Below, in pieces: positions 1-29,698 of a stretch of DNA of 64,000 nucleotides. The notes below the pieces were generated by a model. The model did not search any database and had not been told where the DNA came from. It was given only the letters and a program-made list of their open reading frames with translations. Both the position numbers and the translations under genes were made by a program. Within the stretch, counting starts at the first letter, position 1. Every line of letters begins with the position of its first letter. The stretch covers positions 3,410,001 to 3,474,000 of the forward strand of contig NZ_CP099997.1 in the NCBI RefSeq assembly GCF_024138145.1, written 5' to 3'. This stretch comes from Natronosalvus halobius (GTDB lineage Archaea > Halobacteriota > Halobacteria > Halobacteriales > Natrialbaceae).

Positions 1-1254
1 GGTGACGGCCTGCTGGTAGTGGTAGTCGACGACGTCGCCGGCACCGAAGATGCCGGGGACGGCGGTTTCGGTCTGGCCGCCGCCGTCGCCGCCGTTCGTC
101 TCGAGATATCCCTCTTCGTCGGTCTCGATGCCGAGTCCCTCGAGGTAGTCGGTGTTGGGCGTGTGGCCGATAGCGAAGAAGACGGCACCGACGTCGAAGT
201 CGAACTCCTCGGTTTCGGGGTCGTCGAGGCGGTCGGTCGGGTGCCCCTTCTCGTTGCGAACGAGGGTGACGTGGTCGACCCCCTCCTCCTGGGAGCCGTG
301 GATCTCGACCAACTCGGTGTTCTTCATGATCTCGATGTTGCCGTCCTGGACGTGCTCGTGGACGCGGTCGATCCAGTAATCTTCTGCGCGGAATTCCTCG
401 CGGCGGTGGGCCAGGTAGACCGTGTCGGCGAACTTCGTGAGGAACGAGGCTTCCTCCATGGCCGCGTCACCGCCGCCGACGACGAGCATGTCCTCGTCGC
501 GGAAGAAGGCGCCGTCGCAGGTCGCACACGTCGAGAGGCCGTAGCCCATGAGTTCGTCCTCGCCGGGGATGCCGAGGGTGCGGGCGCTGGCGCCGGAGGC
601 GACGATGACGGCGTCGGCGGTGTAGCGGTCGCCGTTGGTGAGGTCGACGCAGAAGGAGTCCTCGGTGGCGTCCTCGACGTCCTCCACGACGGAAGGATCC
701 TCGAGCCGCTCGACGTTTTCGACGATGCCGTTTTTCAGTTCGGCGCCGAACTGGCGGGCCTGTTCCTTCATGTTGTTCACGAGTTCCGGGCCGCTGATCC
801 CCTCGGGGAAGCCCGGGTAGTTCGCCACGTCGGTCGTCAGGGTGAGCTGGCCGCCGGGTTCGTCGCCCTCGATGACCAGGGGCTCGTTGTTCGAGCGCCC
901 AGCGTAGATGGCAGCCGTCAGGCCAGCGATGCCCGTTCCGGCGATGAGCAGGCGACGGTGCTCGACGACCTCGCAGTCGTCATCGCGGGCGATGCCGAGC
1001 ATCTCGTCGAGTTCGCCGGTTTCGTCGAGGGCGCTGGTCTCGTCCCAGCCGCCGATCAGTTCGTCGTTCACGAATACCTCGGGGGCGGTCTTGCGGCCCT
1101 CGGCGCGGTCGACCATCTCCTCGAACAGGTCCTCGTCGCCCGTGACGTTGTACGTCTCGTACTCGACCTCTTTGGCGTCGAAGAGGTTCTTCGCCTTCTC
1201 GCAGTACGGGCAGTTCTCTTTGGTGTAAATTTCGACTCGAGGGGCGTCGCTCAT
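1..1254 (-). CDS. trxB: Glutaredoxin-thioredoxin reductase fusion (3' end beyond window)
   Basis: NADPH-dependent flavoprotein disulfide reductase with a glutaredoxin-like domain at its N-terminus. Translation of the minus strand from the ATG at 1254 gives a Grx fold with CPYC at residues 15-18. It is followed at about residue 105 by the FAD-binding glycine motif (AGTGIAGL) and GGQL, then the redox-active CATC at residues 243-246, the NADPH-site GGGDAAMEEA and HRREEFRA, and a final FAD motif (GIFGAGDVVD). The frame is still open at base 1, so the last residues are missing. An intramolecular electron path from the TrxR dithiol to the Grx domain is inference; the cytosolic thiol-redox role is known for the family. 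The plus-strand reading of this region is a GC-driven shadow. Confidence 0.9.
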   Translation of the reverse strand, partial: MSDAPRVEIYTKENCPYCEKAKNLFDAKEVEYETYNVTGDEDLFEEMVDRAEGRKTAPEVFVNDELIGGWDETSALDETGELDEMLGIARDDDCEVVEHRRLLIAGTGIAGLTAAIYAGRSNNEPLVIEGDEPGGQLTLTTDVANYPGFPEGISGPELVNNMKEQARQFGAELKNGIVENVERLEDPSVVEDVEDATEDSFCVDLTNGDRYTADAVIVASGASARTLGIPGEDELMGYGLSTCATCDGAFFRDEDMLVVGGGDAAMEEASFLTKFADTVYLAHRREEFRAEDYWIDRVHEHVQDGNIEIMKNTELVEIHGSQEEGVDHVTLVRNEKGHPTDRLDDPETEEFDFDVGAVFFAIGHTPNTDYLEGLGIETDEEGYLETNGGDGGGQTETAVPGIFGAGDVVDYHYQQAVT

Positions 1255-25271: not shown

Positions 25272-25643
25272 ATGCCGGAGAGTCCGTTCGACGTCGAGAT
25301 TCGTATCGGAGAGATCGTCCGTGCGGAGTCGTTTCCCGAGGCGCGAAAGCCGCACATGACGAAACTGTGGATCGACATCGGTTCCGGTTCCGATTCCGAT
25401 TCCGATTCAGACACCGGTGACGATTTCGTTCGATCGGCCGGCCAGCACGACTACCACTACGATCCTAAGGAACTGATCGGTCGCCGGGTTCTCTGTGCGA
25501 CGAACCTCGGGAGCGTTCGCATCGCCGGGTTCAAATCCGAGGTTCTCACCGTAGGCGTTCCGAGCGACGAGGGATACCCCGTGCTCGTGACCCCCGACTC
25601 CGAAGTTGACGCGGACGTGCCACTTGGCGGCGTCCTCTACTGA
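25272..25643 (+). CDS. CsaA-like tRNA-binding domain protein
   Basis: A 123-residue OB-fold protein of the CsaA / Trbp111 family, which binds tRNA and may act as a chaperone. It begins FDVEIRIGEIVRAESFPEARKP and ends with GRRVLCATNLGSVRIAGFKSEVLTVGVP, both characteristic. Between them, at ~residues 39-53, a Ser-Asp repeat (GSGSDSDSDSDTGDD) interrupts the loop after LWIDIG, where canonical CsaA has no insertion. The fold should tolerate a loop insertion. Stands alone between the PQQ and DUF5799-like genes. Confidence 0.8.
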   Translation: MPESPFDVEIRIGEIVRAESFPEARKPHMTKLWIDIGSGSDSDSDSDTGDDFVRSAGQHDYHYDPKELIGRRVLCATNLGSVRIAGFKSEVLTVGVPSDEGYPVLVTPDSEVDADVPLGGVLY

Positions 25644-26749: not shown

Positions 26750-26839
26750 CTCGAGCCGTGTTGCCACCTCGAGCCGTGTTGCCACCTCGAGCCGTGTTGC
26801 CGCCTCGAGCCGTGTTGCCGCCTCGAGCCGTGTTGCCGC
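26750..26839. repeat. 18-bp tandem repeat, five copies
   Basis: Five head-to-tail copies of ctcgagccgtgttgccac/gc start at 26750, 26768, 26786, 26804 and 26822, with only the penultimate base varying (a or g). They lie in the ~270-bp spacer between the DUF7545-like gene and the bioY operator. In one frame they read LEPCCR repeated, but the reading frame has no start or partner and the repeat is taken as non-coding. Confidence 0.85.
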
Positions 26840-26924
26840 CTCGAGCTACGTCACCGGCGATTCTGCCGACGGCTCGAGTCTCGAGGGACCGAGATTCGGA
26901 GACGGTACTCGTATGACGACGGAC

Positions 26925-26952
26925 GTAAACCGAAGAATTAAATCGGGTTTAC
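26925..26952. promoter_or_regulatory. BirA-box-like operator over the bioY TATA box
   Basis: GTAAACC (26925-26931), 14 nt, GGTTTAC (26946-26952) is a perfect 7+7 inverted repeat. The known biotin-repressor (BirA) box in bacteria and archaea has the form TTGTAAACC-N14/15-GGTTTACAA, so arms and spacing agree. The spacer contains TTAAAT (26938-26943), a TATA element about 27 bp ahead of the bioY ATG at 26967. A repressor here would block TBP binding. The match to the consensus is from memory; the repeat itself is read directly. Confidence 0.8.
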
Positions 26953-26966
26953 GAGTGACTCGAGGT

Positions 26967-27548
26967 ATGGCTACGTCAACCGAAAACGTCGACCTCGTCG
27001 GCGGCGACGTCGTGCGTTCGTTCGCTCGAGCTGCCCTGTTAGCGGTGTTGATCGGCGCGAGCGCCTACGTATCGATTCCACTGCCGGTTTCGCCGGTCCC
27101 GTTCACGCTCCAGGTGTTGTTCGTCTTCCTCGCAGGACTGGTGCTCGGGCCCGTCTGGGGCGCCGTCTCGATGGTGCTGTACCTCGCCGCCGGTGCGATC
27201 GGCGTTCCCGTCTTCGCAGGGGGCGTAGGCGGCGTCGGTCACCTGTTCGGCTACACCGGGGGATACCTCTGGTCGTACCCGATCGCGGCGTTCGTTATCG
27301 GCCTCCTCGTCCACCAGGGCTGGCGGGTTCGAGACCCCGCGACGATACAGAAAACGACGCTCGCCGCGGCGCTGCTGGTTGGCCTCGGTATCATCTACGG
27401 CCTCGGCGTCCCGTGGCTCGCCTGGGTCCAGAGCCTCTCGTTGGCCGAGGCGGCCATCATCGGCATGGCGTACTACGTTCCCCTCGACCTCGTAAAACTC
27501 GCCGCCGCGATCGCGATCGTTCGGAGCGAACGGATTCCCGTCGCCTAG
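26967..27548 (+). CDS. bioY: Biotin ECF transporter substrate-binding component BioY
   Basis: A 193-residue membrane protein with about six helices. The BioY signature is visible: ASAYVSIPLPVSPVPFTLQVLFVFLAGLVLG, the VSMVLYLAAGAIGVPVFAGG segment and HLFGYTGGYLWSYP. The ATG at 26967 is at the position of the predicted transcript start, so the mRNA should be leaderless. It is the first gene of bioY-bioM-bioN and would form an energy-coupling-factor transporter for biotin uptake. Regulation by a BirA-like repressor through the overlapping inverted repeat is inferred. Confidence 0.93.
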   Translation: MATSTENVDLVGGDVVRSFARAALLAVLIGASAYVSIPLPVSPVPFTLQVLFVFLAGLVLGPVWGAVSMVLYLAAGAIGVPVFAGGVGGVGHLFGYTGGYLWSYPIAAFVIGLLVHQGWRVRDPATIQKTTLAAALLVGLGIIYGLGVPWLAWVQSLSLAEAAIIGMAYYVPLDLVKLAAAIAIVRSERIPVA

Positions 27549-27551
27549 TCG

Positions 27552-28280
27552 ATGATCGAATTTCGCGACGTTCGCTACGAGATCGAGGGCGTCACCGTCC
27601 TCGAGTCCATCTCGCTCGAGATCGGGAGCGACGAGTTTGTCGTCCTCGCGGGGGCGAACGGGAGCGGGAAGACGACGCTCCTGCGTCACTGCAACGGTCT
27701 GCTGACGCCGACGACGGGGACGGTCCTCGTCGATGGCACGCCGGTCACCGACGACCTCGTGGCCGCCCGCACGGCCGTGGGAATGGTCTTCCAGCACCCA
27801 CGAGACCAGTTCGTCGCCGCCACGGTCGGCGCGGACGTCGCGTTCGGACCCGAGAACCTCGGCCTGGAGCGGGCCGAAATCGATCGCCGTGTAGCGGACG
27901 CGCTCGAAGCCGTCCGACTCGAGGGTCGCGAGGCCGGCCGAATCCACACTCTCTCTGGGGGCGAACAGTCCCGCGTCGCCATCGCGGGCGCGCTCGCGAT
28001 GGAGCCGACCCACCTCGTCCTGGATGAACCGTTCACCGGCCTCGACGACCCTGCCCGGCGGGCCGTCCTCGAGCGCCTGGCTGCCCTCTCCCGGCAGGGA
28101 ACCGGAATCGTCCTCGCAACCCACGACCTGCGGGACGTCCTCGAACTGGCCGACCGGGTGATCGTTATGCGAAACGGCGCGATCGCGATCGATAAACCAC
28201 CGGCCGACGCTCGCGATTCTCTCGAGGGCGAATCATTTGCCGTTCGCGCGCCCGGCAGCGGTTCGCGAGTCGGGGACTGA
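27552..28280 (+). CDS. bioM: Biotin ECF transporter ATPase BioM (CbiO-type)
   Basis: A 242-residue ABC ATPase. Walker A is GANGSGKTTLL (~38-48), the Q-loop is MVFQHPRDQFVAATVGADVAFGPENLG (typical ECF A-component), the signature motif is LSGGEQSRVAIAGAL and Walker B is LVLDEPFTGLD. Four bases separate it from bioY and six from bioN, consistent with an operon. It powers BioY-mediated biotin uptake. A role with other S components in the cell is possible. Confidence 0.92.
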   Translation: MIEFRDVRYEIEGVTVLESISLEIGSDEFVVLAGANGSGKTTLLRHCNGLLTPTTGTVLVDGTPVTDDLVAARTAVGMVFQHPRDQFVAATVGADVAFGPENLGLERAEIDRRVADALEAVRLEGREAGRIHTLSGGEQSRVAIAGALAMEPTHLVLDEPFTGLDDPARRAVLERLAALSRQGTGIVLATHDLRDVLELADRVIVMRNGAIAIDKPPADARDSLEGESFAVRAPGSGSRVGD

Positions 28281-28286
28281 CGATCG

Positions 28287-28991
28287 ATGCTCGGTTACGA
28301 ACCCGACGACACGCTCGCCCACCGCCTCGATCCGCGGTCGAAACTCGCCGTCCAGATCGGGTTCTCCGTCGCGGCGCTGGCTCACCTCTCGCCGCGACTG
28401 CTCGCGGCACTCACCGTCCTCGCGGTGGGGTTCCTGTGGTCTGCGGACGTTTCGCCGCTTCGTGCGCTCGTCGCCTACCGGTTCGCGCTGCCGTTTCTGC
28501 TCGCGGCCCCGGTCGTCGCTGCGCTCTCTCTCGGCCCGCCCTGGCTCGAGCCTGGCGACGCGATCGAGCCGATGCTTGCGAGCTACCGCGTCCTGTTGAT
28601 CGTCCTCGTCAGCGCCGCCTACGTGCGCTCGACGCCGGTTCGCGCCTCTCGGGCGGCTATCCAGCGAACGATTCCGGGGAAACCCGGCCAGGTGCTGGGA
28701 ATGGGCGTCGCGCTCGTCTTTCGGTTTCTCCCCGTGCTCCGGGCCGATCTGCGGTCAATCCGGGACGCCTCTGCGGCTCGACTGGGGACCGAACGGGGCT
28801 TGCTCGAGCGGGTAACCCACCTCGGGGTGACGGCCCTCGAGCGAGCGTTCCTCCGGGCCGACCGACTGGCGATCGCAATGCAGGCGCGGTGTTTCGCCTG
28901 GAACCCGACGCTCCCGGAACTCGCGCTCACACGACTCGACGTGCCAGCGTTCGGGCTTGCCGTCGCGCTAACGGTATCGGCGTTCCTCTAG
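28287..28991 (+). CDS. bioN: Biotin ECF transporter transmembrane component BioN (EcfT)
   Basis: A 234-residue EcfT-family protein with 4-5 hydrophobic segments. The conserved HRLDPRSKL near the N-terminus and the cytoplasmic coupling motifs SIRDASAARLGTERG and DRLAIAMQARCFAW link it to the ATPase. The last gene of the biotin transporter operon; its stop overlaps the convergent lipoate-ligase gene by 4 bp, so the transcripts would run into one another. Confidence 0.9.
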   Translation: MLGYEPDDTLAHRLDPRSKLAVQIGFSVAALAHLSPRLLAALTVLAVGFLWSADVSPLRALVAYRFALPFLLAAPVVAALSLGPPWLEPGDAIEPMLASYRVLLIVLVSAAYVRSTPVRASRAAIQRTIPGKPGQVLGMGVALVFRFLPVLRADLRSIRDASAARLGTERGLLERVTHLGVTALERAFLRADRLAIAMQARCFAWNPTLPELALTRLDVPAFGLAVALTVSAFL

Positions 28992-29698
28992 GCGTCGAGT
29001 TCCTCGAGAATGCGTTCCCGCTCGCCGACGAGTGCCGACTCGAGGACGCGCCGCACCCGTTCGGGAGAGACGGCCGAGCCGTCTGTGACACCACCCACTG
29101 ATTTCGGATCGAACGCCACCTCGAGCGCGTCGTAGACGGCCTCGAGGACGTCTCGGATTTCGTTGCTTGCCTCGACGAGCAGAATGCCCGAGACGAGGGC
29201 GGCGTCGCTCGTCACTCGCTGGGCGATGCCGACGACCTTGCGACGCGTCCCGCCCGCCTCGAGCGAGAGGGAGTGGGCCCCCGGACAGAAGGAGTCGTCG
29301 GGCTCGCCGCGAATCGGTTCGACGCCGAGGGCTGCGAGGGCCGATTCGACATCGGCCGTGAGCCGTTCGTAGCGCTCGTCGGTCCCTCGCCGAAAGTCCG
29401 CGACGGGTTCGGCGCGGGCGAACGCCATCACCTGAACGCCGTCGTAGGCGACCGCTCGACCGCCGACGTTGCGCTCGACCGGTGGGAACCCGCGTTCGTC
29501 GGCGGCCTCGCGGGCCCGTTCGTACCCCTCGCGGCGGGCGTCGCGGCGGCCGAACGCGACCTGTTTGTGGGGCGTCCAGACGCGAACCGCCGGTCGTCCC
29601 GCGGCGGCGATCTCCAGGAGCCGTTCGCTCGCCGCACGGTCGGCGTCGATGGTCGGCTTCCGGCCCCGGAGGACGCAAACCGGCGGAGTCGCTGGCAT
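28988..29698 (-). CDS. Lipoate/octanoate protein ligase family (BPL_LplA_LipB fold)
   Basis: A 236-residue ligase-fold enzyme for attaching lipoate or octanoate to dehydrogenase E2 subunits or GcvH. Seen are PAVRVWTPHKQVAFGRRDARREGYE near residues 36-58, PPVERNVGGRAVAYDG (a divergent form of the RRxxGGG motif), and TRRKVVGIAQRV, where the lysine is at the expected catalytic position. The C-terminal accessory domain of full LplA is absent. It converges on bioN with 4-bp overlap. The same fold is used by biotin ligases, but the sequence lacks the GRGRxxR of BirA. Confidence 0.8.
   Translation of the reverse strand: MPATPPVCVLRGRKPTIDADRAASERLLEIAAAGRPAVRVWTPHKQVAFGRRDARREGYERAREAADERGFPPVERNVGGRAVAYDGVQVMAFARAEPVADFRRGTDERYERLTADVESALAALGVEPIRGEPDDSFCPGAHSLSLEAGGTRRKVVGIAQRVTSDAALVSGILLVEASNEIRDVLEAVYDALEVAFDPKSVGGVTDGSAVSPERVRRVLESALVGERERILEELDA

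Follow-up and report, generated by a model that had tools for sequence, protein, structure and literature searches.

BirA regulons have been described in E. coli (bioO), B. subtilis (the bioW, yuiG and yhfU operators) and S. aureus. Their operators share a GTnAACC inverted repeat with about 14–15 nt between the arms and lie ahead of genes for biotin uptake or synthesis; the cognate biotin ligase carries an N-terminal HTH, and the presence of this domain tracks the presence of sites. Such regulons and their boxes were reportedly predicted by Rodionov, Mironov and Gelfand in 2002 to be conserved in bacteria and archaea. For B. subtilis BirA, operator binding requires both biotin and ATP (PMC4016012). 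The transporter genes are also of a known type, as bioYMN operons such as those of Corynebacterium glutamicum and Natrialba magadii (Nmag_0886-0888) encode the same three-gene ECF biotin transporter (PMC3403918; PMC3398298). The passage of PMC3403918 on the Natrialba genes mentions no BirA operator, whereas a predicted box of this kind is present at the locus analyzed here. A search of the open-licence literature found no experimentally studied BirA regulon in haloarchaea. While a BirA-type regulator and its box are of an already known kind, the use of two fixed box placements within one regulon is the part that appears undescribed. The present analysis started from a window of Natronosalvus halobius DNA (the whole stretch analyzed, 64,000 nt), in which a BirA-type operator had been predicted over the TATA box of bioY.

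An inverted repeat encloses the bioY core promoter

The exact 7-14-7 inverted repeat GTAAACC GAAGAATTAAATCG GGTTTAC spans positions 26925-26952 of the window (Table 1). Its letters, and the TTAAAT box inside its spacer, are as the original prediction described them. The prediction had also assigned the repeat the form and spacing of a biotin-repressor box, and this assignment holds: the repeat is of the GTnAACC type with a 14-nt spacer, and boxes of the same form also precede bioY in some bacteria and in a member of the Methanosarcinaceae. The predicted distance of 27 bp to the bioY ATG is correct only when counted from the middle of TTAAAT, where it gives leaderless spacing; from the end of the box to the ATG (26967-26969), the distance is 14 nt.

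Table 1. Features of the predicted operator, its target operon and the candidate repressor (window positions unless stated otherwise)
Feature	Position	Strand	Description
Left half-site GTAAACC, predicted BirA operator	26925..26931	+	Outer flank here GAC; clade consensus (T)C-GTMAACC
14-nt spacer GAAGAATTAAATCG with core promoter	26932..26945	+	BRE-like CCGAAG overlapping the left half-site, then TTAAAT
TTAAAT box inside the spacer	26938-26943	+	About 24-29 nt before the bioY ATG
Right half-site GGTTTAC	26946..26952	+	Flanked by GAG, shared with most relatives
bioY, biotin-specific S component of ECF transporter	26967..27548	+	PF02632, E 1.4e-41; start 14 nt after the box
bioM-type ECF ATPase	27552..28280	+	PF00005, E 6.4e-30; NCBIfam ECF_ATPase models best, below cut-off
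bioN-type T component (CbiQ family; CbiQ/EcfT-type)	28287..28991	+	PF02361, E 3.1e-15; ORF stop at 28991
BirA, 314 aa (locus L001)	G000:C1:459863-460804 (outside the window)		HTH_11, BPL_LplA_LipB and BPL_C in one protein

The exact palindrome occurs once in the window and in none of 100 dinucleotide-preserving shuffles, and the whole 3.85 Mb genome holds no other exact copy. Below it in rank come six genomic sites with 2 mismatches each, all of them within open frames of 109-885 aa. Because every one of them falls in a frame of at least 109 aa, they were rejected as further operators and no second target is claimed in this genome. The sequence upstream of birA was also searched for a box that could indicate autoregulation, and none was found.

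The core promoter was examined through sequence columns numbered from the start codon. Haloferax promoters carry TTWT (TATA-box) and CGAAA motifs, and 72% of the transcripts are leaderless (PMC4983044); the CCGAAG ahead of TTAAAT resembles this haloarchaeal BRE (CGAAA). Across 95 aligned bioY loci, A is found at -34/-33, T at -29/-28 and A/T at -26/-25. At bioB, where the box occupies a different position, the corresponding columns hold A (-34/-33), T (-29/-28), A (-27) and T (-26). Since these BRE/TATA positions are common to bioY and bioB despite the different placement of the box, the core promoter can be recognized independently of the operator. Judged from these columns, the BRE/TATA element is within the spacer of the predicted operator at bioY. 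At both genes it is found about 25-35 nt before the start codon, as in leaderless haloarchaeal promoters, and the bioY transcript is expected to be leaderless, which the promoter spacing fits. Unlike bacterial BirA operators, the haloarchaeal spacer holds an archaeal BRE/TATA from which a leaderless transcript is predicted.

The gaps within the run of bioY, ATPase and T-component genes are only 3 nt and 6 nt, so that one promoter plausibly serves all three. A longer in-frame bioY ORF from the ATG at 26913 was disfavored, as both homology and the spacing in relatives back 26967.

Several further features were observed around the operon. About 80 bp upstream of the operator lies a tandem array of 5.4 copies of the 18-bp unit CTCGAGCCGTGTTGCCGC (window 26750-26846); this unit was sought at the bioY loci of three congeners and was absent. 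Directly downstream of bioN, a convergent lipoate-ligase-like gene (LplA-B_cat) occupies window positions 28991-29698 on the minus strand and is possibly a cofactor-ligase neighbor. A small tRNA-binding-domain protein (PF01588; window 25272-25640) contains an acidic insertion, GSDSDSDSD.

The box is conserved at haloarchaeal bioY genes

Conservation was assessed at 102 haloarchaeal bioY loci, which were picked by the Pfam BioY model alone, with no use of the motif, and which span 57 genera and 11 families of the same order. The best upstream palindrome of the form 7-13..16-7 was scored against GTMAACC/GGTTKAC with at most 2 mismatches. A box was present at 98 of the 102 loci (49 exact, 44 with one mismatch), compared with 1.8% of shuffled upstream sequences and 1.4% for permuted half-sites at the same threshold; the compared genomes are related, and these counts do not amount to independent trials. 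The recurrence upstream of orthologous bioY genes that the original prediction implied was thus observed, including in the named relatives Natronosalvus, Halovivax, Halorussus and Halegenticoccus. The spacer measures 14 nt in nearly all bioY loci, and the gap from box to start is 14-15 nt in most; in one genus (g35), two genomes depart from this, with an unusual gap and weakly matching boxes (2-3 mismatches).

Most core positions of the box are 97-100% conserved, and bases further upstream are near random. Conservation falls quickly outside the box except for a short outer extension, C before and GA after. This haloarchaeal outer flank is C/G (TC-GTMAACC ... GGTTKAC-GA), unlike the T/A outer flank of bacterial BirA boxes. 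The box hardly varies, while the identity of BioY proteins from different families is only about 50%.

The palindrome might instead have arisen by chance or be something common to promoters in these genomes, and the looser versions with 3 mismatches, of which this genome has about 58 compared with 37 for the control, could be read in that sense. However, the genome contains the exact site only once, and the contrast between 98 of 102 bioY upstream regions and 1-2% in controls refutes this reading, which retains a negligible probability. A relaxed form of the box was found in 164 of 242 genomes, against 12 matches of a reversed control pattern, and nearly all sites that can be assigned are at bioY or bioB.

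Relatives also have sites elsewhere than at these two genes (G172 C2, G228 C1:1889407, G156 C12 and G200 C42); these were dropped, as they fall within the chance rate of the control pattern. At one of them (L237, G228:C1:1889407), GTCAACC-N14-GGTTGAC ends 8 nt ahead of an ORF of 299 aa other than bioY or bioB, possibly by chance. A separate observation concerns short ORFs of 4-13 codons, often 12, at bioY loci of several genera (L192, L201, L229, L193, L194, L190 and L196). They start 13-18 nt after the box, the usual leaderless position, and their TGA overlaps the bioY ATG or GTG (ATGA/GTGA). These ORFs resemble a leaderless mini-ORF coupled to bioY, and their peptides are not conserved.

A shifted box at bioB

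The second gene that carries the box is bioB. All 37 bioB loci have it: 20 were retrieved by their BATS domain, independently of the motif, and each of these carries the box at ≤2 mismatches; the other 17 were found through the motif. The box is therefore located at the promoters of both biotin uptake and biotin synthesis genes (bioY, 98/102; bioB, 37/37). Relative to the start codon, it spans about -42 to -15 at bioY and -19 to +9 at bioB, a shift of about 23-24 bp with the TATA element unmoved. Starting just past the TATA element, the bioB box thus covers the initiation region and the start codon, a position over the start codon that is unlike the known BirA regulon.

A leadered bioB was first suspected, with homology starting 42 nt after the box. 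This was rejected on the basis of an in-frame GTG or ATG inside the box in 37 of 37 loci, reading (G/A)TG-GTT-(TAC/GAC/AAC); GTG-GTT-TAC thereby serves as codons and as half-site alike. The valine codon in this stretch is GTT in every locus (37/37), compared with 42 of 852 valine codons in the gene bodies; the DNA site, rather than the protein, therefore best explains the codon choice. BioB was sought in the window's own genome and was absent. This genome is predicted to depend on biotin uptake, and bioY is the only operator-bearing gene found in it.

BirA as the candidate repressor

The genome encodes a single full BirA, which with its HTH and ligase domains is probably a group II biotin ligase. 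Its N-terminal HTH_11 domain is matched with an E-value of 2.5e-11 (43.7 bits vs. a cut-off of 25), and the ligase model TIGR00121 scores 177 bits against a cut-off of 83; the NCBIfam birA repressor-domain model TIGR00122 gives 57 bits, with a cut-off of 70. A phmmer alignment to E. coli BirA covers residues 9-296, HTH included. The DNA-binding domain on which the original prediction depended is present, as both the HTH_11 match and the E. coli alignment attest. The recognition helix reads SRAAVWKH, compared with SRAAINKH in E. coli BirA, and this motif is conserved in haloarchaea.

Losses of the box, of BirA and of its targets are correlated. Ten of the 242 genomes lack BirA, and in all ten BioY, the box and biotin carboxylase are missing as well. 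One genus (g60; genomes G124 and G174) retains BioY, the ligase and biotin carboxylase, yet the BirA match begins only at residue 61/63, past the HTH, and the box is missing from bioY in both genomes. Sites are thus absent where the HTH or the whole of BirA is absent. In G108, which has neither BioY nor BioB, the recognition helix reads SRTAVRRAV, compared with SRAAVWKAV in eight congeners. G131 lacks BioY and retains BioB, and its sole box is at bioB. These four kinds of change, which comprise few independent events, all in the same direction, point to BirA as the protein that would bind the box. G136 goes against the pattern, as its bioY-like gene (C1, locus L280, about 2251-2949), located between dnaK and dnaJ, is unboxed although the BirA of this genome keeps its HTH; the boxed bioB in the same genome can explain this retention.

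A different biotin-responsive or general regulator could bind the palindrome in place of BirA, given that bacteria also have biotin regulators from other families, such as BioR of alpha-proteobacteria (PMC4554459). We regard this as unlikely, for the form of the box matches the BirA signal and recurs upstream of the bacterial and Methanosarcinaceae bioY genes, the box is lost together with the BirA HTH in g60, and decay of the recognition helix in G108 accompanies the loss of targets.

Discussion

The palindrome is very probably the operator of the bifunctional biotin ligase/repressor BirA, which would repress bioY-bioM-bioN by TBP/TFB exclusion when biotin is plentiful, much as the original prediction proposed; that proposal is well supported. 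The sequences themselves show the site, its position over the BRE/TATA, its conservation, the HTH on BirA and the correlated loss, and we infer binding by BirA, biotinyl-AMP as the signal and exclusion of TBP. Once acceptor proteins are fully biotinylated, BirA carrying biotinyl-AMP would dimerize, and the dimer would occupy both half-sites, which sit on either side of the BRE/TATA in the predicted leaderless bioY promoter. This would keep TBP/TFB away and repress the importer operon. When biotin is scarce, BirA would be occupied as a ligase, leaving the bioY promoter free. In genomes that make biotin, the same repressor would act on bioB too, blocking RNA polymerase rather than TBP/TFB.

It is also conceivable, though improbable, that BirA binds the box and activates transcription, or has little effect, instead of repressing it through TBP/TFB exclusion. 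Some archaeal regulators do activate by recruiting TBP (PMC2995911). However, the half-sites flank and overlap the BRE/TATA at bioY and cover the start at bioB, the archaeal regulator LrpA represses from beside the TATA element by blocking RNA polymerase (PMC2995911), and bacterial BirA is itself a repressor (PMC4016012).

If BirA represses at both genes, the two placements become informative. Regarding the step at which initiation would be blocked at bioY and bioB, we infer that it differs between them. The bioB placement leaves the TATA element free and should therefore block RNA polymerase loading, as does LrpA bound just downstream of TATA (PMC2995911). We give an even chance to the proposal that one repressor blocks two steps at two genes, the step depending solely on whether an otherwise identical operator is displaced by about 23 bp, with TBP/TFB excluded at bioY and RNA polymerase loading blocked at bioB. 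Operator position likewise sets the blocked initiation step for archaeal repressors acting at the core promoter, such as P. furiosus LrpA (PMC2995911). LrpA nevertheless belongs to another protein family and responds to another signal, whereas the haloarchaeal case is that of one repressor predicted at two placements on two genes.

As such a repressor, BirA would represent a vitamin sensor of wholly bacterial type that directly controls a eukaryote-like TBP/TFB promoter, an arrangement kept across an entire archaeal class. The two fixed box positions, together with one genus in which HTH and box are jointly lost, provide a natural comparison of the step blocked by an archaeal repressor, and this comparison is available in easily grown Haloferax-type organisms. 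If the two-step proposal is true, importer and synthesis genes that receive one and the same biotin signal could differ in how fast or how deeply they respond.
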